Of a DNA stretch of 50,837 nt, positions 1-41,100 are shown piece by piece. The notes under the pieces were generated by a model. It did no database searches. It was given only the letters and a program-made list of their open reading frames with translations, and was not told where the DNA came from. The stretch covers positions 1 through 50,837 of the IMG/VR virus record IMGVR_UViG_3300047552_001737. One strand, written 5' to 3'. The stretch is from a virus. The first letter of the stretch is position 1, and every line of letters begins with the position of its first letter. The translations under genes were made by a program, and so were the position numbers.

Positions 1-90
1 CTACCCACCCCTATTGAAAATACCCTATAAAATGGCACCCCCGGTCTAAATACGGTCCCTAATTGGAAAAAATTTCTAAAAATTTTCTTA

Positions 91-130
91 AAACCTAAAA
101 CCTAAAACCTAAAACCTAAAACCTAAACCT
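91..130. repeat. Telomere-like heptamer tandem repeat
   Basis: CCTAAAA occurs four times exactly (94-121), followed by a 6-nt variant and a final CCT. It lies just past the stop codon of the minus-strand gene ending at 129, next to a duplicated 10-mer (ATTAAGAGCT on the minus strand) that forms the end of that gene. No hairpin is evident. The repeat resembles eukaryotic telomere repeats only by composition. Function is unknown. Confidence 0.8.
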
Positions 131-374
131 AGCTCTTAATAGCTCTTAATACCTTATTTGTTTCCTTTATAAGCCCGGGCCTATTTGTTGTCTTATGCCA
201 AACTATCTTATGGGGTAAAACGGTTATTTTACCCTGATTTAGGAAATAATCGACCGTGACCATACATTCCGGGCAGGTTACCTTTGCAAAAAAGATAGTA
301 TAGTTTTTACTGGCACTATTGGGCGCATTTGTTAATTCCGTCTGTCGGACCTGTATTTTGTCCTTAAACCGCAC
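129..374 (-). CDS. Small hypothetical protein with CPEC motif
   Basis: An 81-residue product that I do not recognise. It holds one CxxC pair (TCPEC, about residues 33-37), which could bind metal or be redox active, followed by a stretch rich in V, I and H. The last residues are encoded by a duplicated 10-mer (ATTAAGAGCT), so the C-terminus may have been altered by a small duplication. It is the last gene of the leftmost minus-strand run and overlaps the small ORF upstream (332-493). No function can be inferred. Confidence 0.5.
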   Translation of the reverse strand: MRFKDKIQVRQTELTNAPNSASKNYTIFFAKVTCPECMVTVDYFLNQGKITVLPHKIVWHKTTNRPGLIKETNKVLRAIKS

Positions 375-493: not shown

Positions 494-540
494 CCTAAAC
501 CCAAATCCTACTATAATTATAACTATAACTGGCAGTTATT

Positions 541-597
541 ACAGTTAGTGCAGTTAATGCAGTTAATGCAGTTAATGTAGTTAATGCAGTTAGTACA
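541..597. repeat. Imperfect 9-bp tandem repeat (GCAGTTAAT)
   Basis: About six imperfect copies of a 9-bp unit. Because nine is a multiple of three the unit keeps frame, and on the minus strand it encodes repeated Thr-Ala-Leu in the hydrophobic second half of the seventh mini-gene unit. Slippage here would change length but not frame, in contrast to the neighbouring 7-bp tract. Confidence 0.8.
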
Positions 598-728
598 AAT
601 CCTGCATATGCAATGCATTCAGCTAAATAAGCATTTACTCCCAAAATAGACTCAAATCCTACTAAAATACCGACATAGACAGCAAGTGAAGACAGTATTG
701 CTTTTGAAAGTCCTGAAAAGTATTCAAG

Positions 729-758
729 ATCTTGGATCTTGGATCTTGGATCTTGGTC
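729..758. repeat. 7-bp tandem repeat (ATCTTGG x4)
   Basis: Four perfect copies of ATCTTGG (CCAAGAT on the minus strand) lie exactly where the seventh mini-gene unit changes reading frame. The unit length is not a multiple of three, so each gain or loss of a copy by slippage moves the frame. Five or two copies would fuse the conserved N-terminus to the hydrophobic C-terminal half. Confidence 0.85.
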
Positions 759-825
759 GTGGAACTTGCATATCTACTGTAGCAATTTCTCAGTCTACGT
801 CTAATTAGTGGGATTGCTGGAATCA

Positions 826-1131
826 TTATGTATTACTCACCTTTGATTTAGTAAAAGAATGAAACCACCAATAATAACTAAAACGCGATGTCACACTGGA
901 CTTACTTCTACCCAATCTACTTAGTTTCATTTCATTTGAATTCATACTCCACCATCTACCACTTCGACACCCACTTCTACTACTACTGCTGCGATTTGAG
1001 CTAAAATTAGAAATGACCTTACTTGTATTTCCGGGAGTTCCGCTTGAGACTGTGATACTGCTTCTATATCTACTATATGCAGCCCTTATTCTACGTCTAA
1101 TTAGTGGAATTGTTGTCATTGTATCAGTCAT
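826..1131 (-). CDS. Mini-gene family unit 6 (Arg/Ser-rich)
   Basis: A 101-residue member of a tandem family. The N-terminus carries IPLIRRRIRAAYSRYRSS, the middle is Ser/Arg/Gly-rich, and the C-terminus is aromatic (SYYWWFHSFTKSK). The start ATG overlaps the end of unit 5 by 8 bases; a second in-frame ATG four codons later is also possible. The stop overlaps the ATG of unit 7. No strong ribosome site is seen, so expression probably depends on translational coupling. Function unknown; the basic N-terminus could bind nucleic acid or membranes (inference only). Confidence 0.6.
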   Translation of the reverse strand: MTDTMTTIPLIRRRIRAAYSRYRSSITVSSGTPGNTSKVISNFSSNRSSSSRSGCRSGRWWSMNSNEMKLSRLGRSKSSVTSRFSYYWWFHSFTKSKVSNT

Positions 1132-1390
1132 GATTATATCTTGATGCAGTTATTGACGTCACCCAGTAATGGATAAACCTGCTGCCCATACTTTTTGTTG
1201 TACTAACTGTCCAACCTAATTTAGTTTTACTTCTAGAAAAAAGGCGAAGGTGCCGATCTCCATTTACTACCCTACTAGCAATAGCTCCTACAGTCAAGGC
1301 GCTTCTAACCCGGCTTGCAAGACCGCTATACGCATACCGACGACTCCTACTTCTGGCTCTACGTCTAAGTAGTGGTAAAATAAAGTTCAT
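1124..1390 (-). CDS. Mini-gene family unit 5 (Arg-rich)
   Basis: An 88-residue member with MNFILPLLRRRARSRSRRY at the N-terminus and SRFIHYWVTSITASRY at the C-terminus. It starts in an ATGA overlap with the stop of unit 4. Compared with its sister units, changes in the Arg codons (AGA/AGG, CGT/CGC) and in the C-terminal Ser and Thr codons are often silent in this frame, which supports it as the translated one. Function unknown. Confidence 0.6.
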   Translation of the reverse strand: MNFILPLLRRRARSRSRRYAYSGLASRVRSALTVGAIASRVVNGDRHLRLFSRSKTKLGWTVSTTKSMGSRFIHYWVTSITASRYNHD

Positions 1391-1701
1391 TTAGCTCTCG
1401 ATTTAGTGCATGAATGTAGCCAATAAAACACATTAAACCGACTTGAGGAGAGGCTCCTGCTGCTGCCAATGCGACTATTTCCTATGCTACTTGTGGTACT
1501 CCACAGAGCCGTAGGCGTTCTATCACTACAGCTTGAAGAACTCATACAACCAGCCCTGGCTCCATTTATTGCAAGACTAACACAACCCTTAATGGTTAAA
1601 TCCCAACTATCGATGCTTTCCCTGCTCTTCCCCCATTTTCTTGTATATTTCCTATAAACACTTCTGCTTCTAGGTCTTGTAGTTGGTATATGGAAGTTCA
1701 T
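1387..1701 (-). CDS. Mini-gene family unit 4 (Ser/Arg-rich)
   Basis: A 104-residue member with MNFHIPTTRPRSRSVYRKY at the start, a Ser-rich middle and VFYWLHSCTKSR at the end. It begins 6 bases after the stop of unit 3 and its stop overlaps the ATG of unit 5. The +1 frame of this unit reads as a hydrophobic, protein-like sequence but contains several stops. I take the open frame as the gene. Function unknown. Confidence 0.6.
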   Translation of the reverse strand: MNFHIPTTRPRSRSVYRKYTRKWGKSRESIDSWDLTIKGCVSLAINGARAGCMSSSSCSDRTPTALWSTTSSIGNSRIGSSRSLSSSRFNVFYWLHSCTKSRAK

Positions 1702-1707
1702 TTAAAC

Positions 1708-1971
1708 TCATTTATTTCGGTTTGTCTTGTTTATTGACCAAAACCATAATGAAAGCCCAAGTCTATTACCTGCCCTGCTTGCTAGATTTGTTTTTGGTGC
1801 AAAGCCACTGCAGCTGAGAAAACTGCTCCCACATCCAGCTATGGTCCATTTGCTGCTTCTGGTCCTACTTCGGTATAATCCGATTTTTGACCGAGGGCTG
1901 CTCCTCATAAATCTATTATATATTCCTCTATATCTACGTCTAATTATTGGAATATGTATATGAAAGTTCAT
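1708..1971 (-). CDS. Mini-gene family unit 3 (Arg/Ser-rich)
   Basis: An 87-residue member with MNFHIHIPIIRRRYRGIYNR at the N-terminus and a Trp-containing end (LSLWFWSINK). Its ATG lies 32 bases inside the end of unit 2, the deepest overlap in the array. The duplicated TATACATATTCC segment at its start is shared with unit 2's tail. Function unknown. Confidence 0.6.
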   Translation of the reverse strand: MNFHIHIPIIRRRYRGIYNRFMRSSPRSKIGLYRSRTRSSKWTIAGCGSSFLSCSGFAPKTNLASRAGNRLGLSLWFWSINKTNRNK

Positions 1972-2236
1972 TATAAGTCCTGTGTTTAGTTACTGAACAA
2001 ACCCAATAGTAATATCTACTCTTGCTGGTCCAACTCTTGCTCCAAAGGGAGGAAACGCAATTCGCTCTTACATTGCTCCATACGTTGGTTCTGGAGGTTA
2101 ATCTGCTCTCAGTTCTGCTGGTTTTAATACTTCTAGCCTTAACAACTCCAGCTAAATCTCTGTATCTACTGAAAACTCGTTTCTTTCTGAACGGTCCTCT
2201 ATTTCTACGCCTCATTAATGGAATATAGAAGTTCAT
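1940..2236 (-). CDS. Mini-gene family unit 2 (Arg-rich)
   Basis: A 98-residue member with MNFYIPLMRRRNRGPFRKK at the N-terminus and SRYYYWVCSVTKHR near the C-terminus. The last 13 residues run on into the start of unit 3 in another frame. The start is a TAATG junction with unit 1. The central third is basic and Ser/Thr-rich. Function unknown. Confidence 0.6.
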   Translation of the reverse strand: MNFYIPLMRRRNRGPFRKKRVFSRYRDLAGVVKARSIKTSRTESRLTSRTNVWSNVRANCVSSLWSKSWTSKSRYYYWVCSVTKHRTYNELSYTYSNN

Positions 2237-2556
2237 TACTTAGACCCATAGGTTATGGAATAAATCCATGTGTATGTTATTCCATATCGACAACTATCGC
2301 TACGACTAGTCCAATTACTTCTACTCCACGTCGTGCTGGTTATTGTTGTATCAGGTCGGGAGCTTCTGACTCTGCTGTGACAACTCCTCCAGTTCCAACT
2401 CCATGAGTAATTACCACCACCTCCACTGCCTCTAGTTATACTACTGTTCCTAAGTGCGTCTGGTCTCCTATTGCAGACGCTCTTACTGCGTCCATATCTT
2501 TCATATGTAGGCCTTAAAGTGCGTCTAATTAGTGGAATATGGATATGAAAGCTCAT
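2236..2556 (-). CDS. Mini-gene family unit 1 (Ser/Arg/Trp-rich)
   Basis: This 106-residue member is the first of the array in transcription order. It has MSFHIHIPLIRRTLRPTYER at the N-terminus and a low-complexity middle with a Gly run and alternating Ser/Trp (GGGGNYSWSWNW), then TWIYSITYGSK. It starts 11 bases after the stop of the Pro/Lys-rich gene upstream, so the array belongs to the same operon. Function unknown. Confidence 0.6.
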   Translation of the reverse strand: MSFHIHIPLIRRTLRPTYERYGRSKSVCNRRPDALRNSSITRGSGGGGNYSWSWNWRSCHSRVRSSRPDTTITSTTWSRSNWTSRSDSCRYGITYTWIYSITYGSK

Positions 2557-4414: not shown

Positions 4415-4450
4415 CCCGCACTATACATCAGGCCTTTTAGCTGCTGCGAG
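4415..4450 (-). repeat. Array repeat 3, overlapping the nuclease stop codon
   Basis: 36 nt, identical to repeat 2. Read along the minus strand it begins CTCGCAGCAGCTAA, which encodes the last residues of the nuclease (end of Pro, then Arg-Ser-Ser-stop). The array therefore begins inside the coding region, as an omega-RNA does in TnpB loci. Confidence 0.85.
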
Positions 4451-6029
4451 GGCCTATGTGTTTTGGTCTTGTAGTGGCTTGATATTCTTGATGTATTCTC
4501 TCATCTTGCGAGCGACCCCTAGTGACCCCTACTGTAGGCTTGCGCCCCAGCGGCTCTTCAATAGTTAAGTACGCACGTTCCCGAGAGTTTTTGTCTGCGA
4601 GCGGGTCTAGGGGAGCGGTTACCACCGAGCCCCTCGCCTTACTGGCCGATTTCCCACTTGGATACAACTCCGGACCTACCGCCGACAGGGTGGTGTGTGC
4701 ACCCTTAAGCCACTCATTTCGAGCAGCCTGTAAGTCCAGTTTACCTTTACCTTCACCTTCTACAACAAATCGCGCAAGATATGCGCTAAAAATATCTCTT
4801 TGGCAATTAACTCCGCAGTCACAAATATGACGTGCTTGTGGACCCATATTGGGGTTCTTTGCCTTACGACCGCATAAACACATTTGAGACAAAGCTGTGG
4901 TGCGTGTAGGAATTAATACCACATTGGTTAATTGCTTTAGACGGGCAATGAGATAACCAGGAGCAGTTGACTTAAGTCTCTTGTTCCAGTTAGAATTACG
5001 CCAAGACCTGAAATCAAGGTCTTCCGTCATTATAATACCGCGTGCGGCAATATCTTTGGCAAGTATATTTCTCCCATTCTTACGAGCCGTCGCCTCTTTA
5101 CGGTGGAGTTTACGCAAAGCTTTTTTGGTAGCCTTGAGAGCCGCTGTATCTTGTTTTAGCTTATTCTTCTTATTAGCCTCAATTTGACGAGACATTTTGC
5201 GGCTAATTTTACGCAGTTTAACATCGAATTTGTTTTGTTGTACGGTGTCATGACGTAGAACTAGACTGCCTGAAGTGGCATCGACAACAGCTACAGTAGA
5301 TACACCAATATCTACTCCAACACTACCTGACTTAGGCTGTACTCGGGATAAAGTCTTCCCTACACAGATAAGGCGGGCAGAAAAGGTGTCTCCATTGTAA
5401 CACATCTCAATAGAAGAAATTCGGTGCTTAAGAGCATATTCAGCAAATTCATCGCCTTTTTCCCAATAAGGCTTAATTATAAGACCTGCTCCCCACTGAA
5501 TACCTTCAGGAGTGAGCTTGATGTGTTGATTTCCGTTTATAGAAACCCATTCGCCTCTACGAAGACTTCGGAATCTCGGACGCTCCCCACCATATAACCA
5601 CGCTCCCGCTGTCTCATAGGCTCTTTCGGCAATAGTATTAGCTGGCTGAGCACCTAGGTCTGGAGCTATGGCATTTCGAAGGTTCTTGTACTTCAATTCC
5701 TTGGTTACATCAAAAATATTTATTCCTTTAAATGGAAGACCCGGAATATTCTTAGAAAGACTCTTAAGTTCTGCAGCAAGGTCTGTGGGCAATTTCTTGT
5801 TTAGACGACGGCGTTCAGTACAAAGCCACTGATATCTCTTATTGGCTTTGATATGTTCTACCCGCTTAATTGCTTCACGAAGATTCACATTGTACCACTT
5901 AACTACTTGCACAAACCTCTTTCGGAGTTCGTGCTTCTGGGCTTCAGTAGGGCTCAAGGCAAGCCGAAACACAAACCGGCCATCTTCTTGTGTTTTTTCT
6001 GTTGTGTTCATTGCTTTCTTTTGTGTCAT
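4437..6029 (-). CDS. Compact TnpB/Cas12-like RuvC nuclease
   Basis: A 530-residue protein, longer than a typical TnpB (about 400) and in the range of small Cas12 effectors. The N-terminus resembles the OrfB helix-turn-helix region (FRLALSPTEAQ). The RuvC triad is intact: D240 in GVDIGVST, E336 in IIMTEDLDF, D412 in CQRDIFSAY. A zinc ribbon is formed by C384/C386 and C403/C405 just before D412. About 115 extra residues follow the last motif. The family cuts DNA guided by an RNA from the 3' end of its own gene or a CRISPR array. No tnpA-type transposase is nearby. The gene looks GC-richer than its neighbours, suggesting acquisition. Effector of the adjoining array is an inference from position. 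Confidence 0.85.
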   Translation of the reverse strand: MTQKKAMNTTEKTQEDGRFVFRLALSPTEAQKHELRKRFVQVVKWYNVNLREAIKRVEHIKANKRYQWLCTERRRLNKKLPTDLAAELKSLSKNIPGLPFKGINIFDVTKELKYKNLRNAIAPDLGAQPANTIAERAYETAGAWLYGGERPRFRSLRRGEWVSINGNQHIKLTPEGIQWGAGLIIKPYWEKGDEFAEYALKHRISSIEMCYNGDTFSARLICVGKTLSRVQPKSGSVGVDIGVSTVAVVDATSGSLVLRHDTVQQNKFDVKLRKISRKMSRQIEANKKNKLKQDTAALKATKKALRKLHRKEATARKNGRNILAKDIAARGIIMTEDLDFRSWRNSNWNKRLKSTAPGYLIARLKQLTNVVLIPTRTTALSQMCLCGRKAKNPNMGPQARHICDCGVNCQRDIFSAYLARFVVEGEGKGKLDLQAARNEWLKGAHTTLSAVGPELYPSGKSASKARGSVVTAPLDPLADKNSRERAYLTIEEPLGRKPTVGVTRGRSQDERIHQEYQATTRPKHIGPRSS

Positions 6030-12608: not shown

Positions 12609-15600
12609 ATGGCGGACATCCCCACTCCACGTTCATATAATCAAATTCTAAGCGACTTAATTAGTGCCTTTTTGTCAAGGTATGGTATTTCACAACTACA
12701 AGTCGGTTCGCCTATTCTGTCCTTCTTAGAAGCTGCTGCTCAAAGCGATGTAAGAAGCAGCCAAGATGTATTCAACCTACTGGATTCAATTTCTATAGAC
12801 AGAGCTAATGGTCAGGCATTAGACCGCTTAGCTGCTGATGAAAACATAGCTAGACGCACTGTAACTGCTTCAAATGGCGCAGTTACCTTTTATGACACAA
12901 GTTTTACAAAGAAGTCCAGCTTACTGTATTTAGGCACTGGAGCATTAGTTGCCGGAAGCTTGACTGTTCAAGTAGAAGATGCCCTTTCTTTCCCAGTTTC
13001 TGGAACTATTTACATTGGACGTGGAACTGATAACTTTGAAGGTCCGCTTACATATACTGCCAAAACTCAATTTGCTGGATATTGGCAATTAACCCTATCT
13101 GTAGCTACATCTAAGTTCCACAACTTAGGAGAGACAGTTGTTGTAGGTCAAGGTGGGCTACGTCAAATTCCTCCGGGAACTGTAGTCCAAACTACACAAC
13201 AAGCTCTTGGCGATGCAATTAAGTTCACTACCATCTATAGTGCAGTAATTCCAGATGGAGAGGTTGAAGTAACTGACGTCGATGTTCTAGCTCAAACTCC
13301 AGGTCTTTCTGGAAACGTACCAGCAAACTCAATCAAAGAAGTAGTATCTACTTTATTTGTGGGTGCTGCTGTTAAGAACCCATTGCCGTTTAGTACAGCA
13401 ACTGCTGCTGAAACAGACGAAGCACTACGCGAACGCATTAAAGACGCTAAACAATCCAGAACAAAGGGAACTGGGTTATCCATAATTAATGCAATTAGAG
13501 GAGCTAGGTCTTCTGAAGACAATAAAACCCTTATTAGCTCGTCTTTAGTTACTTCAGGAGATAGAGCGAAGCTATATATAGACGATGGTACTGGGTATGA
13601 AGAAACATTTGGAAACGTAGCCACCGAGACGCTGATGGATTCTGCTCTTGGTGGGGAAGACGTTTTCCAACTATCCGGACCTAGACCAATTGCTAAGGCT
13701 TTCGTAAAATCTGGATACACTGCTCCATTTGAACTAAATGACCAAGACTTGCTATCCGTACAGGTCGGCGGTGTTACATCTACCCACATATTCCCAAGTG
13801 GAGACTTTTACAACATAGCTAATGCTTCTGCATATGAAATAGTAGCAAGTATCAATGGTAATCCAAATCTATTGTTTAATGCAAGAACTTCCGATGGCGG
13901 TTCTAAGGTTAGTTTATTTGCTAAATCAGACGTCAACGAAGATTTGCAGGTTCTTTCCTTAGATTCTTCTGATGCTAACGTAGCTCTTAATTTCTCTACA
14001 AATCCAGCTTATACACTTCGTTTATACAAAAACGACGTATTGCTCTACAAAGATGGCAAAACTGCACTAGTTAGCAGCCTTTATCAATACGAATGGAACT
14101 CCGGTATAACCGATGGAGACACTTTAATTCTCTCTGTAGACGGGACCTCTGACCAGACAATTACAATAAGAAACTCTGACTTTATTTCACAAAACACAGG
14201 CTATACTACTGTTAATTACCAAAACTCACTAGATTCTTGGGTAACCGTACTTTCTTCTAAAATAGCTGGTGTGTCTATATATAATAGAAATGGCAGACTT
14301 GAAGTCTCTAGTAACCTAAAGGGTAATTCAAGAAGCCGCATTGAAATTGTTGGCGGGACATTAACCACCAAAAACATGTTCAATGTTGGAGATGTATCTG
14401 TTGGCCAAAACAATGACTATTCATTAAACAGAAATACTGGTCAAATCAAGTTAAATCAGCCATTGGTTGAATTTGATAAATTAGAGATTGCCAGCCCAAA
14501 TACAAAAGCTTACATTCAGACTCCAGAATTCCCTACATCAAGTGTTACATTTGCAGGCAGTATCCCAACTTGGTGGTTTTGTATAGATGGTTCTTCTTCT
14601 TTATTGAATCCAAATATATCAAGCTCTACGTCCATTGCGGTAAGTATTCCAGTAGCTGGTTTAAGTAAATATCAAGTAGCCAGCGGATTGCTTGGTGGAG
14701 AGGTTGAAGTTGGTGACTGGGTAGTTATTTGGGATACTGCATTTAATGCAAGTAATAGAGGTATCTTTAGAGTTACCCAAGTAGATAATGCTACTGACTA
14801 TTTTATTGTCGAAAATGCTGCAGCGGTTCCAGAAACTGTAACTCCAAGTTCACAAGGAATCGCCTTCGCTCGTAGCTCTACACAACCACAGTCAGTCAGT
14901 GCCACAATAGCAACATATTCTCTTAATTCATTAGCTACTTTATTTAATCAGTCTTTAATTGGAGCTAAAGCTGAAGTTTACAGGAATAAGTTCTTCAGAG
15001 TTACCTCCAATTCATTCGATAATGGTGATGTATTATTGATTACAGCCAATACATCAGCTCAATCTCTGTTATTGCCAGTAAGTCATGACGATGCAGAACC
15101 TAATCACTTAGCCACGGTTGAAAGTGGTCATTCTGAACTTGGTACGCCCAGGTTCTTATTTACATCAGTATCTTCAGCAACCTCCAATACAGTAACTGCT
15201 ACTCCAAAAACAACCTCAATTACAGACAGCCTATATGACTATTGGGGTGTAGGTGATTTTATCAAGTTCCAAAAGAAGCTTGATACTACAGTAAGTTTCT
15301 ATGGAAATGCAAGCGAAGACCGTAGAGTTTTGACTGATATCACTGGTTCAGTCTCTACTACTAAGACAAATGCAATGTCCAGAACTCCAGAAGCCGGAGA
15401 TATTGTTCAGGGATTCAATACATTCACTCTTGGTGCAACTGACAGCATTAACGTCATACTGGATGGAGATGCATTAAACAAGAATTATAATATCCCACTA
15501 TACAGACAAGTTAAGCCATTGGCTGGAGCCACATACGGTGCCGCTGCGTTCGAGGTTCGTGAAACAGCCGGTTCCTCCCTATTTGCTGCTTGGGGAACTA

Positions 15601-18600
15601 CTTCGTCTTTATTTAATGACTTTGCTGTATACATGAAAGCCAGAGGCAAGTCACACTCAATTTCTGCAAATCAAGCGCTTTTGTGGAGATTTGCCAGAAG
15701 CGGTCCAGAAGGTGAGTGGGCAAAGGTACGATATGTAAATCCAACTGCCCCAAGCCAGACTTTGGGCATATCAGCTTCTGACGCAATTCCTTTAGTTAAA
15801 AATCAAATAGCTGGAACCGGGACATCGTCATATCCAAAGACATTTATTGATGTAACTCTTCCATCTGGGACAGAGCGCACTGGACTTGGTTTAGATGGCA
15901 ATATGTATTGGCTATTTAACAAATTCCCTACATTTACAGCAGGGGTTGCCAGAGTTGCTAGATCTGCCGGTACTACAGTTACGGTTACATTAGACTTGAC
16001 ACTAACCTCTTATTTACATAATTTGTCTATTGGGGACATAATTGTATTAACAAATAGTGATACAGATTTCGCAGCTGGCGTATATACAATAACAAACGTA
16101 GGTGCTGCAAGCTTCCAATATAGTGATACCGGAGCTAATACAGTAAACGGGACAAGCCTTACATACGCTCTGTATTATAAAGATGCCGGTATTAGTTATT
16201 CAATTACAAATATCGCAGTAACATCAAACGTAGTAACTGCTACAATTGGAGCGCATCCATTCAAGATAGGCGATGTAATTTGGGTGCCATATCCATACTA
16301 CTATAACTCAGGTGCCTCAGCTGTAGGATTAGGTAGTTTTACTGTAACTGCAATAAGTGGCACTACAGTAAGTTGGACTCAATTTAAACCAGATTTAGCA
16401 AGCACACCCACTCCTGGAGTATGGGTAGTCTCAACTGGTGCTACCGCAAAATGTACTGCGCAATACTACAGGGCTCAGGTCAAGGCTGGTAGCTTACAAA
16501 GAGTGGGTTCGGTAGTTACAGCTACTTGGGCAGCCACCTCACTAGTAGATAGTTGTCCATACGCTGTTGGCGACTTAGTATATTTAACCCCAGGCGAAGC
16601 TAATTTTGCTGCTGGAGCTAAGGTAGTTACAGAGGTCGGGTCTGGATACTTTAAGTATTCAGAAACCGGTGCAGCAGTTTCTAGTGCTGGTATTCAGTAC
16701 TTCCAATCAACGCCAAATATGCCTAATTTAACTGGTGGTGGAACTCCTGTAATAAACGGAGATATTGTTAATTTCTCATCTTTCGTACCAGATTCTCTTG
16801 GTCTGCGTGGAAGCGTTAAGTTATCCGAAATATCTTCAACCGGATTTACATTCTGGTCAGATTTAAGAAATACATCTGCGTATCAAGAAATATTTAAGCT
16901 AAACTCATTGACCAATATGAGGTTTTTCCCAATAACCCCAACAACTGCAAGTGCTATAGCGACATATGTAAATAGCAATTCTAGTATTGTTTCAGCTACT
17001 GTATTGGGAACCGGAGCTACAAACGTAGACACTGCTACTGAAGATGAGTTCTTGACCAAAACTAACAACGCTTCAATAAATGGAGCCGGAACCTTCTCAA
17101 TTCCATGCTTTGATTTATTCGATGGAATTAACTACGTACTTAATACAAATATAAGTAATATAGCTAGCAATATATCACTTAAGAAGGCGGTGAGTGGAGA
17201 ATTAACTACTAACAATGACTTCAATAATGAAGTATTGACATTAATTCCCAAAACTGCAGATAACTTTGTAAACTTCCTTTCCAATCCAGCTGCTACTGGC
17301 TTGTCGGCAAATGCTTCTATTTACACTTCTTCAAATGGAACGAAGGTTGAGCTAGTATCTTCTCAATCTGGAAGTGAAGGAAGTATACAAGTTGGCGGTG
17401 GTCAAGGCAACCAAAGCAGCGCCTTGATTTACAACGGAGCAATGAATTTAAGCTACAATAACTCAGGATTCGTATTTAATGCTCTAACTTCCCAATTATC
17501 TGGATTCTCAGGAAGAATGCCAGTTAGAATTGCAAATCAAAATAAAACAGCTAAATCTGCGTATATAAATGCGGCAAATACGTGGACAATATATCCTGGC
17601 GATAATGCAAATGAATGGCTGATTGTATCTGACGATGTCGTAATAGTTCCTAAGGCCCAGAACGTTGATGCGACTCCTAGAAATTGGCAAGTAATGAAAC
17701 ATGGAGACTTCGTTTCCTATACAGAAACAAGCGCTTCACCACTTGATTTTAGTGGCGTATATGTTGGAGATTTGTTTATAATTAAGAATCCAGTAACTGG
17801 GACCGCATTTAGTCAAGTAAATACAGGTACTTTCATAGTTGTTGCGGTAGATGCGACAGCTTCTAAAAACACGGTTTGGGTCTATAATCCCAGTGGAGTC
17901 TCTGAAGTAGTAACTGCTACTACTGCTTGGATGAGAATTCTTGATTACAATAGCATTGACTTAGGCGACACACTGACAATTAGCTCATCAGTTCTCGGTT
18001 CTGCAAATATAGGGTCGTTTACTGTAAGTAGAAGGGCTGAGGACTATTTAAGCGCTGATTTCAACAAGAAATTCTATGTTACCGGGAATATGACAGCAGC
18101 CACAGCTGTTCTTGGTAATGACTATATTCACGTAAACATAATTGAAGCTAATCCTTTCTATACATATACTATAATTAACTCAATAATCGAAGATTCTGAA
18201 ATACCAGGAACAAGCAAGGTTTATTGTGCTACTTCATTGGATTATTCTTATATTCCAAAGCTCAATTCTTCGGTTAATTCAACAATGATGGCTTTAGATA
18301 AGCTATCTTTCCCTACATCAGTTAATATAGGATTAGATGGATACTCCTATAACAATGGATTACTGGGAGAGGTTCACAGAATTGTATATGGGGACGAAAA
18401 TGACCCGGGTACATATCCTGGTGTCGCAGCAACTCCTGCTTTAATTGACATTTCTGGACCATTGGTTAAGCGTCTCTATATATCATTAGAAGTGCGTCTA
18501 AGAACTGGCGTTTCAATTGACGCTATATTGAATAAAATTAAATCAGCTATTGCCGCCGAAATAAACAATTCACCAATTGGCACGAATATTGCGATTTCTG

Positions 18601-18758
18601 ATATAGTATCTGCGGCAAATAAAATTAGTGGCGTATTGTCAGTAACAATAATTTACCCAGAATACTCACTAGGAAATGACTTAATCCCAGTTCAGGCGAA
18701 TGAAAAGGCAACAATCTTAGACTTAAATAATGACATTTCAGTAACTATATTAAATTAA
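12609..18758 (+). CDS. Baseplate J-like protein with very large insertion
   Basis: 2049 residues; ordinary J-like baseplate wedge proteins are several hundred. The N-terminus (GSPILSFLEAAAQSD, ANGQALDRLAADENIARR) and the TDEALRERIKDAKQSRTKGT region (about residues 265-285) match the family, as does the C-terminus from about 1945 (LVKRLYISLEVRLRTGVS). Between about 330 and 1940 is an insertion rich in Ser/Thr/Asn/Gly beta modules, including a repeated unit of the form GDxVxLTxxxxxFAAG (residues about 1135-1180 and 1320-1360). J proteins join wedge to hub and sheath. The insertion may decorate the baseplate or bind receptor. Ribosome site AGAGG. Confidence 0.85.
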   Translation: MADIPTPRSYNQILSDLISAFLSRYGISQLQVGSPILSFLEAAAQSDVRSSQDVFNLLDSISIDRANGQALDRLAADENIARRTVTASNGAVTFYDTSFTKKSSLLYLGTGALVAGSLTVQVEDALSFPVSGTIYIGRGTDNFEGPLTYTAKTQFAGYWQLTLSVATSKFHNLGETVVVGQGGLRQIPPGTVVQTTQQALGDAIKFTTIYSAVIPDGEVEVTDVDVLAQTPGLSGNVPANSIKEVVSTLFVGAAVKNPLPFSTATAAETDEALRERIKDAKQSRTKGTGLSIINAIRGARSSEDNKTLISSSLVTSGDRAKLYIDDGTGYEETFGNVATETLMDSALGGEDVFQLSGPRPIAKAFVKSGYTAPFELNDQDLLSVQVGGVTSTHIFPSGDFYNIANASAYEIVASINGNPNLLFNARTSDGGSKVSLFAKSDVNEDLQVLSLDSSDANVALNFSTNPAYTLRLYKNDVLLYKDGKTALVSSLYQYEWNSGITDGDTLILSVDGTSDQTITIRNSDFISQNTGYTTVNYQNSLDSWVTVLSSKIAGVSIYNRNGRLEVSSNLKGNSRSRIEIVGGTLTTKNMFNVGDVSVGQNNDYSLNRNTGQIKLNQPLVEFDKLEIASPNTKAYIQTPEFPTSSVTFAGSIPTWWFCIDGSSSLLNPNISSSTSIAVSIPVAGLSKYQVASGLLGGEVEVGDWVVIWDTAFNASNRGIFRVTQVDNATDYFIVENAAAVPETVTPSSQGIAFARSSTQPQSVSATIATYSLNSLATLFNQSLIGAKAEVYRNKFFRVTSNSFDNGDVLLITANTSAQSLLLPVSHDDAEPNHLATVESGHSELGTPRFLFTSVSSATSNTVTATPKTTSITDSLYDYWGVGDFIKFQKKLDTTVSFYGNASEDRRVLTDITGSVSTTKTNAMSRTPEAGDIVQGFNTFTLGATDSINVILDGDALNKNYNIPLYRQVKPLAGATYGAAAFEVRETAGSSLFAAWGTTSSLFNDFAVYMKARGKSHSISANQALLWRFARSGPEGEWAKVRYVNPTAPSQTLGISASDAIPLVKNQIAGTGTSSYPKTFIDVTLPSGTERTGLGLDGNMYWLFNKFPTFTAGVARVARSAGTTVTVTLDLTLTSYLHNLSIGDIIVLTNSDTDFAAGVYTITNVGAASFQYSDTGANTVNGTSLTYALYYKDAGISYSITNIAVTSNVVTATIGAHPFKIGDVIWVPYPYYYNSGASAVGLGSFTVTAISGTTVSWTQFKPDLASTPTPGVWVVSTGATAKCTAQYYRAQVKAGSLQRVGSVVTATWAATSLVDSCPYAVGDLVYLTPGEANFAAGAKVVTEVGSGYFKYSETGAAVSSAGIQYFQSTPNMPNLTGGGTPVINGDIVNFSSFVPDSLGLRGSVKLSEISSTGFTFWSDLRNTSAYQEIFKLNSLTNMRFFPITPTTASAIATYVNSNSSIVSATVLGTGATNVDTATEDEFLTKTNNASINGAGTFSIPCFDLFDGINYVLNTNISNIASNISLKKAVSGELTTNNDFNNEVLTLIPKTADNFVNFLSNPAATGLSANASIYTSSNGTKVELVSSQSGSEGSIQVGGGQGNQSSALIYNGAMNLSYNNSGFVFNALTSQLSGFSGRMPVRIANQNKTAKSAYINAANTWTIYPGDNANEWLIVSDDVVIVPKAQNVDATPRNWQVMKHGDFVSYTETSASPLDFSGVYVGDLFIIKNPVTGTAFSQVNTGTFIVVAVDATASKNTVWVYNPSGVSEVVTATTAWMRILDYNSIDLGDTLTISSSVLGSANIGSFTVSRRAEDYLSADFNKKFYVTGNMTAATAVLGNDYIHVNIIEANPFYTYTIINSIIEDSEIPGTSKVYCATSLDYSYIPKLNSSVNSTMMALDKLSFPTSVNIGLDGYSYNNGLLGEVHRIVYGDENDPGTYPGVAATPALIDISGPLVKRLYISLEVRLRTGVSIDAILNKIKSAIAAEINNSPIGTNIAISDIVSAANKISGVLSVTIIYPEYSLGNDLIPVQANEKATILDLNNDISVTILN

Positions 18759-18785: not shown

Positions 18786-19826
18786 ATGGCAGTTTTACCA
18801 GCAATATCAAGGTCTTGGTGCACCAGAGCTAATATTCCTATTCCCGACAACTCCTCTACTAGAAATGTCGGTAATAGCTTCTTGTGGAATCTAAAGGAAT
18901 GCCTCCTTAATACCTCCGTAGGTGGTACTTTAACTGGTGTTCGTCATGCTAATAGTGTATGGACTGTAGTTAGGTCGTCCGATGGAGCTGCTGCCGGGGC
19001 TACTGAAGATGGTATTGACAGATGGGGCACTCCATACAACGCCTCTAAGTTTGTTCGAAATACAACTGGTAACGCCCACTCTTGGATTATTCTCCGTAAT
19101 TCGTATATTGGCCATGACATGATTATTGCCTGCAATGCCAATAGCGACAAGGCTGGTCGAGTTGCATTTACCTTGTCTTCTACCCCATTTGGTGCCGGTT
19201 CGGTGACCGCGTCGCCTCCTATTACTAGTTCTCCTAGTTTTGCATATGGAATATCATCCGATGCCGTTGGTAGCAGCATTTCCCTTTCAGAGGATGTAAC
19301 ATCCGGAGCTACTTTTTACTCTCACTTTATTGCTGATGATTTTGGGAATTTCATTTACTTATACAGCAAAGTAGGTTCCGGAATCTTTAGCGGGATGGTA
19401 TCTTTAATTCAATCGGTAAATGCTCATGTAAGTGATACATTTAATCGCTTTGCTTTTGGTGGAACGGCTGTGGTGTCAGGCAAAGGGACTCCAAGTTGCG
19501 CAAATGCTGCTCGTACAACTGCAGGTTGTACAAGTCGAGGGCCGGATAACAGCGCACCTACCGGTGGAGCGACTTGTATATCTGCAGGAGGGACTTCACC
19601 ATTAGCTGAAAATACCGGAAGGTCGGACTCTCGTAGTGGCGAAGTACGTTTTGTGCAAGTTCATGTCTTTTCAGATTCTCCACTTGCTTACAGAGGGGTG
19701 CTTCCTGATATATACGAAGTAATTGGAGGGGTGACTGGGACCTCATATCCAACTATAGCCAATCAAACTTGGGTATCTGTCGGGAACTATCTTTTCCCAT
19801 TCTTATCCACACAGCCCATATTATAG
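18786..19826 (+). CDS. Tail-associated structural protein, paralog A
   Basis: 346 residues, same length as the next gene and clearly its paralog. Nearly identical blocks (RSWCTRANIPIP, GNSFLWNLKECLLNT, TSGATFYSHFIADDFGNFIY, SPLAYRGVLPDIYEVIGG) alternate with divergent Gly/Ser/Thr/Cys-rich loops (about residues 125-175 and 235-280). No enzymatic motif. Preceded by the same ribosome-site block as its sister (GGAGAATAAAC). Position between baseplate J and the Ig-repeat protein suggests a virion surface or fibre component. Function inferred from context only. Confidence 0.65.
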   Translation: MAVLPAISRSWCTRANIPIPDNSSTRNVGNSFLWNLKECLLNTSVGGTLTGVRHANSVWTVVRSSDGAAAGATEDGIDRWGTPYNASKFVRNTTGNAHSWIILRNSYIGHDMIIACNANSDKAGRVAFTLSSTPFGAGSVTASPPITSSPSFAYGISSDAVGSSISLSEDVTSGATFYSHFIADDFGNFIYLYSKVGSGIFSGMVSLIQSVNAHVSDTFNRFAFGGTAVVSGKGTPSCANAARTTAGCTSRGPDNSAPTGGATCISAGGTSPLAENTGRSDSRSGEVRFVQVHVFSDSPLAYRGVLPDIYEVIGGVTGTSYPTIANQTWVSVGNYLFPFLSTQPIL

Positions 19827-19847: not shown

Positions 19848-20888
19848 ATGGCAGTTTTACCCGCAATTTCAAGAAGTTGGTGCACAAGGGCCAATATCCC
19901 TATTCCAAACAATTCTTCTACTAGAAATGTCGGCAATAGTTTCTTGTGGAATCTAAAGGAATGTCTCCTTAACACTCTTGGCGGCGGAACTTTAACTGGT
20001 GTTCGTCATGCTAATAGTGTATGGACTGTAGTTAGGTCTTGTGACGGAGTTGCCTACGGAGCTACTGAAGATGGCGTTGACCGAATCGGAACTCCATATA
20101 ATTCAACCAAGTTTGTTCGAAATTCAACTAGCAGTGCTCATTCTTGGATTATTCTCCGTAATTCGTATATTGGCCATGACATGCTTATCTCTTGTAATGC
20201 CAACTCTGATACCACAAGCCGAGTTGCGTTTACTCCCACGTCGTCCCCGTTTGGTACAGGCTCCGTGACAGCCGACCCCCCAACTACTTCGTTCTCGTTT
20301 CAATTTGGAAGCAATGCTGACTCGACAACTACCGCTACTATAAACGTCGCGGATGTAACATCCGGAGCTACTTTTTACTCTCACTTTATTGCTGATGATT
20401 TTGGAAATTTCATTTACTTATGGAGTAAGGTGGGTTCCGGAATCTTTAGTGGAATGGTATCTTTAATCCAATCGGTAGGTGCCCATCCAAGTGACACGTT
20501 TAATCGCTTTGCTTTTGGTGGAACAGCTACATCGACGAGCACCTCCCTAGGTACGCCATATGTTTCAAGTGCCCATGGGCCTTCTGGCTGTACAAGTAGA
20601 GCGCCAGACGGTGGCGCAAACAGTGGAGGCGTCACAGCCTTATGTGCTGGAAGTGCTACTGCATTGTCAGAAAACAACTGGAAAGGAGATAGTCTTACTA
20701 ATGAGGTGCGTTTTGTGCAAGCTCACGTTTTTTCAAACAGCCCACTTGCTTATAGAGGGGTGCTTCCTGATATATACGAAGTAATTGGAGGAGGGGTAGG
20801 GGTTTCGTACCCAAATGTAGCTAGTCAAACTTGGATATCTGCCGGGAACTATCTTCTCCCCTTCTTGTCCACACAGCCCCTATTATAA
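19848..20888 (+). CDS. Tail-associated structural protein, paralog B
   Basis: 346 residues; a tandem duplicate of the preceding gene, 21 bases after it. DNA identity is very high in framework segments and low in two windows (about residues 125-175 and 235-280), where sequence, small Gly/Ser motifs and Cys positions differ at equal total length. The pattern suggests diversifying selection or localised gene conversion on exposed loops. Ribosome-site block GGAGAATAAAC is conserved with its sister. Confidence 0.65.
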   Translation: MAVLPAISRSWCTRANIPIPNNSSTRNVGNSFLWNLKECLLNTLGGGTLTGVRHANSVWTVVRSCDGVAYGATEDGVDRIGTPYNSTKFVRNSTSSAHSWIILRNSYIGHDMLISCNANSDTTSRVAFTPTSSPFGTGSVTADPPTTSFSFQFGSNADSTTTATINVADVTSGATFYSHFIADDFGNFIYLWSKVGSGIFSGMVSLIQSVGAHPSDTFNRFAFGGTATSTSTSLGTPYVSSAHGPSGCTSRAPDGGANSGGVTALCAGSATALSENNWKGDSLTNEVRFVQAHVFSNSPLAYRGVLPDIYEVIGGGVGVSYPNVASQTWISAGNYLLPFLSTQPLL

Positions 20889-35756: not shown

Positions 35757-36309
35757 ATTTTGGTCTTCCTATTAGTGGTTTATCTTCATTAGATTCTTCG
35801 ACACCAAGAGAGTACATATTGTGTGTATTGCCTAATCCATTATTAGATTGGTCAAGTATCTTCTTAGCTGATTGGTAAGACATTTCAAAGCCTTTTGACT
35901 TAGACCTTAAGTATTGATGAGCAGCTTCGAGCATGTTTACCTTGTCTACTAGCGCTAAATATTCTTCATCTTGGTCTAAAACTGCCTTACGTAAGTCGTC
36001 GCTAGATTTAAGCCCCTTTTTGCTTATAATACCTGGAGCTACGTCTAAAAGTACGACTCCTTTTCTCTTATCTGCCCATTTTTTAGCTTGAGTATATTCG
36101 TAGCTAACCTGAGCCATCATTCTTGAAACTGCACAATAAGCTTTATTGAATATATGCATTAACTCAGGAACGGTTTCTTTATTCGCGAAAGTGATTTCAT
36201 GTTGACGTTTTTCAACAGCTTCAATTTCGCTTAATTCAAAGACTAACGGTGGTACATCGGGAGTGCCTCGTGGCAACTTTAGTAATGTCCCAAGTTCAAA
36301 AACGCTCAT
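35749..36309 (-). CDS. Putative UvsY-like recombination mediator
   Basis: 186 residues, mostly helical. The order of features (a helix with SYEYTQAKKWADKRKG, a K/D-rich loop, LRKAVLDQDEEYLALVDKV, then YLRSKSKGFEMSYQSAKKI) recalls T4 UvsY, which loads UvsX onto SSB-coated DNA. Its position between SSB and UvsX genes agrees. The likeness is by eye and the N-terminal 45 residues are extra. A ribosome site GGAGA precedes the ATG. Confidence 0.45.
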   Translation of the reverse strand: MSVFELGTLLKLPRGTPDVPPLVFELSEIEAVEKRQHEITFANKETVPELMHIFNKAYCAVSRMMAQVSYEYTQAKKWADKRKGVVLLDVAPGIISKKGLKSSDDLRKAVLDQDEEYLALVDKVNMLEAAHQYLRSKSKGFEMSYQSAKKILDQSNNGLGNTHNMYSLGVEESNEDKPLIGRPKYG

Positions 36310-36329
36310 TATTTCTCCAATAAATAAAT

Positions 36330-36347
36330 GGGGAGATTTCTCTCCCC
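36330..36347 (-). terminator. Hairpin between SSB and UvsY-like genes
   Basis: GGGGAGA and TCTCCCC form a 7-bp stem with a GAAA loop on the minus-strand RNA, followed by ATTTATTTATT rather than a pure U run. It is likely a weak terminator or an RNA-stabilising 3' end for the SSB message, letting SSB be made in excess over downstream genes. Confidence 0.55.
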
Positions 36348-36369
36348 ACTTACTTAGTTAATATTAATA

Positions 36370-37365
36370 TTACAGGTCATCTTTAGCAAGACTCGCCATG
36401 AATTCTTCGGCAGATGTTCTTACTGCTTTACTTGTTGACTTACCGGGTTCGGCTCTTGTTGCCTTGGGAGCAACTGGAACTGGAGCAGGGGTTGGGTCAA
36501 CATCTTCTTCGTCATATTCGTCATATTCGGGTTCAGCCTTTGTTGGGCTACTAACTGGAGCACCGAATACGGAATCAGCAATACTTGGGTCACCATCGGA
36601 CGAAACAAGCATTTGGATTTCATTAAAGGTGAGGTCTTTATTGAAGGTCCCTAAGTCCCAAGCTTCCTTCTTCATTCTTTCGAGTAATTCGTCAGAAAGT
36701 GGAGCTTCCTTAATTGACTTAAGTCTACGACCATTGACTTCAATATCTTCCATGGCTGGAACGACATTATATACGGTATTGTCTCTACCCATACCGGTTC
36801 TTTGGAAGTCTAGCCAAACACCTTGTTCTGAGGCAATTGGGTCTAAATGTTCCTTCTCAACTAAATCCTTAAGAGCGGTGTCAAGAGCTTGCTTGCAGCG
36901 AATCTTTATGAATAGACGACCAATTTGTCTATCTTCACGAAGAACGTTTAGGAAATGGCCCTTTTGGATGTTAAACTTCTGAAGCCAGTCATTTAGTGGC
37001 TCTAAAGCTGCCTTGACTTGGTCCTTGGTCTTTCCTTGTTCCTTAAGTATCTTCATCCTATCTGCTAGAACATTCTTCTGCTCTTCGATTTTAGTACACA
37101 TAGGGCATTCTACTTCAATCATGCCGGTCTTGCGGTTCTTTCGTTGAATACAACGGAATGCACGCTTTTTGCCTGTACTTAGCTGAAAGCCCCAATGTAG
37201 AGCTTCATATTGTGACCAACGTCCTGAAGCCGCTAATGAGCCATATGGGGGTAAAATACGGTAGATATGGCTACCTTCATCAGCTAACTTCCAATTAGCA
37301 TTTGCTGAATTTGAACGTGAGTTTGTTTGGTTTCCGTAAACTGGTTTTCCGATTTCTTGTGACAT
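36370..37365 (-). CDS. gp32-like single-strand DNA-binding protein
   Basis: 331 residues. N-terminal region with YRILPPYG and a zinc-type C..CPMC pattern (about residues 72-91, FRCIQRK...VECPMC), an OB-like core (GHFLNVLREDRQIGRLFIKI), and a long acidic Pro-rich tail (EYDEYDEEDVDP, about 273-284) ending EEFMASLAKDDL, typical for partner recruitment. Coats replication-fork single strands and works with UvsX/UvsY. Assignment rests on layout and context. Confidence 0.7.
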   Translation of the reverse strand: MSQEIGKPVYGNQTNSRSNSANANWKLADEGSHIYRILPPYGSLAASGRWSQYEALHWGFQLSTGKKRAFRCIQRKNRKTGMIEVECPMCTKIEEQKNVLADRMKILKEQGKTKDQVKAALEPLNDWLQKFNIQKGHFLNVLREDRQIGRLFIKIRCKQALDTALKDLVEKEHLDPIASEQGVWLDFQRTGMGRDNTVYNVVPAMEDIEVNGRRLKSIKEAPLSDELLERMKKEAWDLGTFNKDLTFNEIQMLVSSDGDPSIADSVFGAPVSSPTKAEPEYDEYDEEDVDPTPAPVPVAPKATRAEPGKSTSKAVRTSAEEFMASLAKDDL

Positions 37366-37366
37366 A

Positions 37367-38122
37367 TTATTTATCTTCCTTTGTTGTTTTGATTGCTTGT
37401 TTTTTCAGCGAGTCGTATATTCTTCTGTAAGTCTTCATTGCTATTGATTTATCTACTTCTTCACCCGGGTCTAGTTCAATTTGAATTGTAGTTTGACCTG
37501 ACAATAAATTGTCGACCCTTCCTGATTTCTCCGGAACTACTACTACTAACAACTCTCTATCTACTTTGTCTTTTAGTCCGGTTTCAACTATTTGATTTGT
37601 AATGTATACATCATTTAATGCACCACCATAACTACCCTCTACTACACCTCTAACTATATCATAAAGTTGGTCTCTTGATGATATAGAAACTGGATTGGGA
37701 GATTGTAATTCACCCCGTCTTGAGATATTAAATGTCCTAGCTGTTGTATGTAGGATTTGGTTCACCTGAACAAATGTATTTGTTGTAAATACCTGATTTT
37801 CCAAGTGCCTTTCAGCATGGTCAGTAAGGAGATCATACACTGTCCGGGCTGGGACAGCAAGGGGTCCTTCTTTTGTTAGTAAGGAGGCAAATTTCTCTGC
37901 CGACTTATTGTCTGAATTAAGTACGACCTTGACTACATTCTTCAATAATTCAGTCCCATATGCGGCCTTTAGTTTGCCTAAATTAGCCTGAGCATCTCTT
38001 ACTCTCATTTCTATTCCAGAACGAACGGAATAGGGGAAAGCAAGTACATCTAGTTCTGATTCAGCTTTTGCATTGTCGATATCGTTTAATAGTTTTTCTA
38101 ATAATTCTGATTTATTTTTCAT
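37367..38122 (-). CDS. Hypothetical protein, 251 aa, replication block
   Basis: Unrecognised. Residues 1-75 are helical and charged; about 130-230 are alpha/beta (VYITNQIVETGL, RELLVVVVPEKSG, TTIQIELDPGEEVD). No enzymatic motif. It lies exactly between polymerase and SSB genes with no gaps, so a polymerase or fork accessory role is possible (inference). Confidence 0.6.
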   Translation of the reverse strand: MKNKSELLEKLLNDIDNAKAESELDVLAFPYSVRSGIEMRVRDAQANLGKLKAAYGTELLKNVVKVVLNSDNKSAEKFASLLTKEGPLAVPARTVYDLLTDHAERHLENQVFTTNTFVQVNQILHTTARTFNISRRGELQSPNPVSISSRDQLYDIVRGVVEGSYGGALNDVYITNQIVETGLKDKVDRELLVVVVPEKSGRVDNLLSGQTTIQIELDPGEEVDKSIAMKTYRRIYDSLKKQAIKTTKEDK

Positions 38123-41100
38123 TTATTCACCTAATGGTTCTACGACCTTAATTAATGTTTTAATTGAAAATCCTCTTTCGTTCCACTTGTTTAATATAGC
38201 TATTACAATTGAGCCTATTACTGGGTTTTCTGGCACAAATAATTCACCATCTTTATTAGCCCAATGAACAAATTCTACTGTATCACCATTTATATCAAGT
38301 AGATACTTTACTGCACGGCTCATCTTTTGCGTCTTTTTGTTAACAAAGTTAAACGGAATTGCATTTGATACATATGCTGCTACTGCTACATACAACGGTT
38401 CATCTGGGTCTACTATAGCTTCTTTGTCCATGTAATGCAACAAGTCGCCATCAACAAATACTAACTTTCCTGTAAGTTCTCTTTTGCCAAAAGATTTCTT
38501 AATAAAAGCTATCGTTTCTTCATTCTTGGGTTGATAAGTGTAGACATCTACTTCTTTATCTCCAATTTGCTTACTCTTCTTATCTATCCCATCTACATGA
38601 ATGTCGAATAAGTATTTAGCTAAATTATCTGTAAAGATGGGGAGTATTTGTTTCTTATATTGATATACCTTAATTGGAGTTATATTTCTATATTCTTCTT
38701 TAATCTTTTGTGGCTTTTTCTTAATAATATTACTGTATACAGCCTCAAACTGCTCTAATTTAGCTATTACGTCTTGGTTTCTATTAAAGAACGAATCCAT
38801 TACACCACTTATAACTAGCTTACTTACCACACCTCTATTTAAAGACGAAGAGCCTAATTTAGATTTATCTTTCTTGATTGTGGCCTTCTTTTTCTTCTCT
38901 AGATAGATTTTCTCAGCAAAGTCGGTTAGTGATGTATATGGCTTATTCTTTGTAAGTTCTTCTTGAGCCTTCGGACCTACACCAATTAACATAGAAATTG
39001 GAGCCTGAATCTTCTCTTCTTTAATACAGAAGTTATCTTCGCTTAATGAGATTTCTGGCAGATTGACTATGTGTTTGCAGTACTTCCAGAACTTTGATGC
39101 AATTTCATCTTTCTTGGCGTTTTGTAATACTCCACACCACCATTCTAATGGATAATAGTATTTAATGAAAGCACACGCATAGGCGATGTAACTATATGAT
39201 ATTCCATGACTTTTATTGAAGCCGTAACTTCCGAATGTTACTATTTGGTCCCATATTTTTTGGGCATCTTGTGCTCCAATTTTAGCAGAGGCCTTTTCCA
39301 TAAAAAGAGGGTATCTTTCATTTATCTTGGGGATTCTCTTTTTGGATACGTCTTCACGAAACTTATTTGCTTCAATACCGGTACTGTCAGTGAGTTTTTG
39401 ATATATATACTGCAATTGCTCCTGATATACCATTACTCCAAAGGTTTCAGGCAGTTCCTTAGTTAATACCGGAATTTCGTCTAGTGGGTCTTCTCCACGA
39501 GCACGAGCAGCATACTCCTGTAACATGTTTCTACTGACGTTTCCGTCTGTAATAACTGCATCTAATGGACCTGGTCTATCTAATGAAGTAAAAGCAGATA
39601 TAGACTCAATACTATTAATTGTCTTTCTTTCTTGAGTATTGTCGGTCCAGTAGTTAAATTCCTTCATCCACTTCTGTGCTGAAGCTGTATTTAATTGGAA
39701 TACTGTCTCTGTATTGCCATCTGCAATAGAATTAAAGACTTCTGTCTTTTCTGGTAAATCCCAGATATCATACATCTTATTATTAAAGTGTAATATTCTA
39801 AATGCAGGAACTTTCTTTCCGTTTAATATATAGCTTTTTTCTGTTAACTTATTCTTATTTCGACTTTGAATTAAGGAAAGTGCAGCTTGTATATCAATTA
39901 GGGTATTAAGGGATAAGTAATCCATCTTAATAGCGCCGGACTCTTCACAAGCCTTGTGAGTGTATTGTGTAGCTCTAAATCCTCCAATTGTCATCATTGG
40001 AATGAAGGAGTCGATCGGCCGGTTAGCAACGATATATGCGGAAGGGTGGCGCCCTTTACTCCGCATGACTCCGCATAACTTAAGAACTATTTTCCATAAA
40101 TCGGGATGTGCCTTAGTAAAGTTCTTTAATCCTTCGTGTGTAGATAATAACCCTCTTACTTCTTTCCCATCTTCTGAAACATATCCATTAATGAAGTCTA
40201 TATCTTCAACACCCTGAGGAGTACTTGGTAATGATTTTGTCAATCTTTCAATGTCGTCTGGAACCCTTCCCCAAGTAGCTCTGGCTACGTTTAGTATAGA
40301 GGATTTAAGGTGGAGTAGTCCGTTTGTACTTACTTGTGCTGCGTGGTCTCCGAATCTTGATTTAAGCCAAGGAAGAAGAATATCTCTATTTGGCAAATCC
40401 TGGTCTATATCAGGCAGTTTTCCTGTTTTAATACGGTCTGCTGTAAGGAATCTGTCTTGGCTTAGGTTGTGCTTAAGTGGGTCAGCGTGAGTGATGCCTA
40501 GCAGGTATGCCGTCAGGAGGCCCGCACTTGACCCACGACCGACGCCAGTTAGCACCCCAGCCTCTTCGTGTACCCTGATTCCCTCTTCTGACAGGAAGAA
40601 GTAGGGGAGTAAGTCAACTGTACCGTTGTTATGAAGTAACTCAATTTCGCTCTTTAAACGAGCCTTCATTGCTTCATTGTTCCAATCCATTCGCCCTTTT
40701 TCTTCAATTAACTTCATTAAATGACTGAGTGAGTCTTTTGGATAGAACTTAGTCGGGAGTGAGATTTCATTCTTTAATTCAAATGATTTGAATCTATTGG
40801 ACCATTCTTGATTATTATCAATTAGCTTCCTGAAACCAACTTCATCAAAGCCAAGGGTTTCATTGAAATGAACAAAGGCTTCATCGGAAGAATATCGGTG
40901 ATAATCTCCATAAAACCTGAAACTATCGCCCATTCCACCTAACTTTGCTTCTTGTATTAGCTTTTCTTCCTTAAATGCATAGTGGCTATCGTCGCTTATT
41001 AAGCACTTATCTCCGTATTTAGCGGCTTTTTCCATTAAATACAGATTTAATGCCTTTTGGATATCTCCATCAGGATTCCACGCAGTACATTCATTTTCAA

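Follow-up and report, generated by a model that had tools for sequence, protein, structure and literature searches.

In a 50,837-bp virus record of IMG/VR (hereafter, the window), which represents a fragment of a myovirus genome, we identified a minus-strand array of seven related small units that are very probably real protein genes. We tentatively favor, at somewhat less than even confidence, the interpretation that they form a tandem family, specific to this lineage, of basic and disordered proteins that bind nucleic acids and arose in a zone dense in tandem repeats, with a function that we infer from composition. The array, whose units run from position 2556 down to 662, is composed of six intact open reading frames (ORFs) of 87-106 aa (826-2556) and a broken seventh of 54 aa, and comes last in a series of small minus-strand accessory genes, beyond the accessory genes and the baseplate and not near the head genes (Table 1). 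A preliminary description of this DNA had listed six intact ORFs and a split seventh, all of which were located and can now be placed on the minus strand. Its extent of 495-2556 holds for the units themselves, while the portion from 495 to the end of unit 1 belongs to an unrelated hydrophobic frame, which shows no homology to the C-terminal part of the remaining units and gave a best E value of 0.08 in PHROGs. The units have in common an N-terminal [IL]PxxRRRxRxxYxRY block and a C-terminal YWxxSxTKSR block; pairwise scores of the whole proteins were 2.4-14 sd above shuffles, and those of the middles alone were mostly near zero, in agreement with the common terminal motifs and diverged middles noticed earlier. 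The proposed coupling by ATGA, TAATG and short overlaps is likewise borne out by junctions ranging from -32 to +6 nt. An AGGA occurs a short way upstream of the unit 5 ATG.

Table 1 Features of the array and of the rest of the window (spacing to the next unit is given in nt, 5' to 3' on the minus strand)
Feature	Positions	Strand	Description	Basis
Unit 7	2236-2556	-	106 aa, first gene of the array; TAATG junction with unit 6 (1 nt shared, -1)	ORF and common motifs
Unit 6	1940-2236	-	98 aa; 32-nt overlap with unit 5 (-32)	ORF and common motifs
Unit 5	1708-1971	-	87 aa; 6-nt gap before unit 4 (+6)	ORF and common motifs
Unit 4	1387-1701	-	104 aa; ATGA overlap with unit 3 (4 nt, -4)	ORF and common motifs
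Unit 3	1124-1390	-	88 aa; 8-nt overlap with unit 2 (-8)	ORF and common motifs
Unit 2	826-1131	-	101 aa; TAATG junction with unit 1 (1 nt shared, -1)	ORF and common motifs
Unit 1	662-826	-	broken copy; N block retained, frame ends at 54 aa past the 7-bp repeat	
Hydrophobic open stretch	495-735	-	minus frame 2 of unit 1; crosses a 9-bp repeat (532-592)	
7-bp tandem repeat	728-768		GATCTTG on the plus strand, ~6 copies, inside unit 1	
TAAAACC 7-bp repeat	89-131		6.3 copies; 4.3 in the second contig (1142-1170)	
TnpB/OrfB-IS605-like protein	4437-6029		530 aa	
Baseplate J protein	12609-18758			
Tandem duplicate ORFs	18786-19826, 19848-20888		adjacent, 346 aa each, between baseplate and tail genes	
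Ribonucleotide-reductase-like protein	44917-47748		intein with LAGLIDADG domain	

A key question is whether these frames are genes or merely open by chance. In dinucleotide shuffles of the middles, the probability of an open frame was 0.0015-0.037 per unit, and the product over the six units, 1.6e-14, excludes chance under this model as the source of six open frames; in the real genes of the phage, 0 of 302 windows of 66 codons were open in the -1 frame. The residual similarity between middles was confined to the called frame (mean z 1.0 vs -0.1 and 0.0 in the other frames). At the ends, the third codon position is the most variable in the called frame, and pN/pS, at 0.63 in the N block and 0.59 in the C block, is the lowest of the minus-strand frames; column shuffles reached the observed values in 5% and 1% of cases, respectively. 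The alignable ends are under mild constraint in the called frame. Non-coding repeats were ruled out by frame retention together with the frame-specific constraint at the ends. The Leu-rich frames of the plus strand were also rejected: plus frame 1 has similar pN/pS (0.65 and 0.72) but contains stops in every unit. No RNA families were found in the searched sequence, and scans for promoters and terminators stayed at the level of shuffles.

The codon composition of the middles and the background-level ribosome-binding sites, on the other hand, speak against ordinary genes. Shine-Dalgarno strength before the units was -2.5, vs -2.2 for the background and -3.9 for other genes of the phage. A codon-usage model trained on the large genes of the phage never favored the called frame in the middles and picked the +1 or antisense frame instead, whereas the same model was correct in 82% of the segments taken from the small genes of the phage. 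Ser in the middles is encoded by AGY in 80% of cases (34% elsewhere), and the +1-like codon composition is largely due to AGN codons (Ser AGY and Arg AGR). In the minus-strand region 829-2556, the +1 frame of the units combines an ordinary phage-gene codon composition with many stops. All three stop codons occur in this frame in four of the six intact units, with TAA and TGA in the other two, and no single stop reassignment opens it in all units, so that an alternative genetic code was discarded.

The preliminary description had also read diversifying selection from the tandem expansion. This reading finds no support: mild constraint acts on the ends, the synonymous differences between units (0.53-0.72) are close to saturation, and the middles, being unalignable, yield no dN/dS. 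The comparison of dN/dS between units that had been put forward as a check was carried out as pN/pS at the ends. Since synonymous sites are near saturation, the divergent middles need no positive selection. Across the six middles, sequence similarity is gone while composition has been kept after this near-saturated divergence, a pattern that would correspond to the behavior of disordered regions selected for composition.

The composition itself is pronounced. The units are proteins of 10-12 kDa with a pI of 10.9-12, a charge of +14 to +19 and a GRAVY of -0.38 to -0.94; charge and pI agree with the small basic protein proposed earlier, whereas the membrane binding suggested with it is unlikely in view of the GRAVY values, the charge and the absence of any hydrophobic segment in the called frame. 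Compared with shuffles, Asp and Glu are strongly depleted (11 vs 29.6 ± 4.1) and Ser is strongly enriched (93 vs 38 ± 5), with Arg and Lys at 72 vs 60. SR/RS dipeptides number 41 vs 24.5 ± 4.1 expected, a value reached in 0 of 3000 shuffles, and SS and RR dipeptides are not enriched; the large proteins of the phage have no SR/RS excess (57 vs 57.8 expected). AlphaFold2 returned a pLDDT of 51 and a pTM of 0.12, a low confidence that is compatible with disorder but is to be expected with seven sequences and is no proof of it; the unit products are probably disordered. Binding of nucleic acids is plausible and would be the simplest consequence of a basic, Ser/Arg-rich composition. The excess of SR/RS dipeptides beyond composition, together with the Ser/Arg richness, the basic character and the probable disorder, makes the units resemble SR/RS-rich disordered nucleic-acid-binding proteins, but they lack an RNA-recognition motif and any other known domain (Pfam, NCBIfam and PDB gave no match), have no long RS repeats and are only ~100 aa long. 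They differ from protamine-like proteins, in which Arg is very high and forms long runs: in the units, Arg makes up 12-17% of residues, and its longest run is 3.

The virus harboring the array is a large tailed phage, a myovirus, whose nearest named relative, a distant one, is Myxococcus phage Mx1 (polymerase 47.5% identical over 99%). In addition to the proteins listed in Table 1, the window encodes a RecA-like protein, a Toprim primase and DNA polymerase III alpha, and the intein-bearing protein is a ribonucleotide reductase. The nearest relative of all is a 160-kb genome, IMGVR_UViG_3300035661_000009 (G001), with 50-85% identity for most core proteins. The same virus is also represented by a second contig, IMGVR_UViG_3300042988_002177, which aligns with the window along 28,766 bp without a mismatch, the two differing by one 14-bp indel. 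The array in this contig is identical base for base to that of the window and is therefore not an error of a single assembly.

Several other features of these genomes were recorded. The two 346-aa tandem duplicates share ~80% DNA identity, and G001 has one single place matching both. The best plasmid matches of the TnpB-like protein, including those from Leptolyngbya, Scytonema and Acidithiobacillus, are 25-29% identical. For the ribonucleotide-reductase-like protein, the best match in G001 covers the post-intein part only, and the primase-helicase (46290-47237) and DNA polymerase III alpha (35933-38641) of G001 match the window proteins over partial length in the best segment, which suggests inserted elements in G001. 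Phage Mx1 carries further tandem paralogous small genes (127431-128495 and 83776-85263), unrelated in sequence to the window array.

Is the family present in other viruses? It had been described as unrecognised, and no significant profile match was obtained in PHROGs, Pfam, NCBIfam or PADLOC, nor any match in the PDB. Among 50,697 phage records, one unit searched as a protein had no match, and the array DNA gave short chance matches only; the unit profile had no match in the genomes G001-G004, and the array was not found in the more distant relatives of the window virus. A strict pattern of the N block, which requires an exact match and could miss diverged relatives, matched nothing in IMG/VR other than the second contig of this virus. 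A second pattern retrieved six other contigs, none with a profile match, and six matches to the N-block pattern in 84,980 species genomes were scattered, fell in unrelated sequence or in frames interrupted by stops, and look like chance. On these exact-match scans of IMG/VR and of the species genomes, the family appears to be restricted to one virus, represented by two contigs. Phages commonly carry tandem families of small orphan genes. Literature searches yielded no account of an array like this one; the family is new, and its kind, the tandem orphan family of phages, is already known.

Short tandem repeats (period ≥5, ≥3 copies) abound around the array. The window contains four such loci, all within its first 2.8 kb; G001 contains 68, of which 67 are located beyond 69 kb, and four more distant relatives have 1-2 each. 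The frame of unit 1 closes just past the 7-bp repeat that it contains. The sole difference between the window and the second contig in 28.8 kb consists of two copies of TAAAACC, ~0.5 kb from the array, although repeat assembly can create such differences. These data support, without proving, repeat turnover as the active mutation mode in this zone.

The G001 genome contains an array of its own, which is more striking than that of the window. It comprises 23 tandem small ORFs at 73,550-80,885 and two at 93,137-93,695, all on the minus strand (~25 mini-genes), each with a basic N-terminus carrying a PSIPWYLKYWRSS-like block and an alternating Ser-x body, and most with an SGSQSK-like end. The body DNA is (AGTNNT)n: AGT accounts for 93% of Ser codons, vs 19% in the rest of the genome, and T is the last base of 94% of the remaining codons. 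Read in the +1 frame, this array consists almost entirely of Val, Ile and Leu. Variation is lowest at third positions (0.054 vs 0.20), and in the N-terminal part it is even across codon positions, so that protein-level constraint is not visible, a result that is indicative only because the alignment of low-complexity DNA inflates differences at positions 1 and 2. Like the window array, it consists of tandem small ORFs with a basic N-terminus, a Ser-rich body and a conserved C-terminus in the same repeat-rich zone, but no homology between the two was detected: the hhalign probability was 0.1, the protein profile had no matches, and the DNA profiles gave none below E 0.01. The same conserved gene (BLASTP 4e-13) adjoins both arrays, but on opposite sides and opposite strands, and the position in G001 that corresponds to the window array holds several short basic ORFs without detectable homology. 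Among the matches to the AGTNNT pattern in IMG/VR that were listed and read, there was no such array except that of G001 itself.

In the explanation we favor, the array would consist of translated, translationally coupled paralogous genes that end the minus-strand accessory run of the phage. Each product would be short, largely disordered and very basic, with a conserved Arg/Tyr N block, an SR/RS-rich middle and a conserved aromatic/Ser/Lys C block, and would act by composition rather than by fold, attaching to the DNA or RNA of phage or host by electrostatic attraction and by contacts of Arg and Tyr/Trp. Such proteins could serve as accessory host-takeover or DNA-coating factors whose dose is raised by copy number. 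The copies may have arisen by tandem duplication in the short-tandem-repeat-rich zone, with one copy lost beside the 7-bp repeat.

The codon composition and the weak ribosome-binding sites led us to retain an improbable alternative, in which the ORFs are overlaid on older sequence as a non-functional trace of a repeat-making process, possibly over an older +1-frame gene. The gene-like codon composition of the +1 frame, with its AGY-biased Ser codons, fits this alternative, as do the nearby short tandem repeats and the analogous array of G001, nearly pure (AGTNNT)n with frozen third bases and no sign of protein-level constraint; however, six frames have remained intact despite near-saturated divergence, composition and SR dipeptides have been maintained in the called frame, and the +1 frame is interrupted by 5-9 stops in each unit, is not similar from one unit to the next and matched no database entry in read-through searches (X at stops). 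It is also possible, but rather unlikely, that the units are small basic inhibitors of a host protein, acting in counter-defence or host takeover, amplified for dose and diverged to different targets. Tandem paralogs at the end of a small accessory gene run, absent from more distant relatives, would suit such a role, and there is a precedent in tifA of T4, also a small accessory phage gene, which amplifies in tandem under toxIN selection (PMC9391042). The copies of tifA, however, are recent amplicons, whereas the window paralogs are old and far from the near-identical tandem copies of a gene accordion; their number, seven, is the same in both contigs of the virus (one pair compared), a specific inhibitor would not usually be of such low complexity in composition, and PADLOC gave no match, although its library covers defence and not anti-defence proteins.

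An assignment to injected internal head proteins, basic proteins with an N-terminal targeting segment and a variable body that are packaged with the DNA, seems very unlikely. T4 IPI-IPIII are small internal proteins, several per genome, with related N-terminal segments and divergent bodies (PMC9026906), and the units are likewise small, basic and multiple, with a conserved N block and a variable body; in addition, a putative prohead protease is annotated in Mx1, a related phage. Nevertheless, none of the six units has an [LI]xE prohead-protease site or a predicted folded domain, the C-terminus is conserved as well, and the seven copies are arranged in tandem, away from the head genes.

What sets the window array apart from routine orphan families is its SR-dipeptide composition and the unrelated, similarly built array of its neighbor G001. 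A broader idea, which we regard as doubtful, is that this phage clade possesses a repeat-driven gene nursery, in which short tandem repeats at one genomic location grow into open frames and in this way give rise to low-complexity, basic, disordered tandem families. If this were true, the (AGTNNT)n array of G001 would be at an early stage and that of the window at a later one, with selection now acting on the protein and not on the repeat, and de novo gene birth would be routine at one place in one virus lineage. Together, the seven coupled copies of the window, restricted to one virus in the scans above, and the ~25 unrelated mini-genes of G001 in the same repeat-rich zone provide a setting in which the birth of genes from repeats, the evolution of copy number and selection acting on composition could be tested directly.
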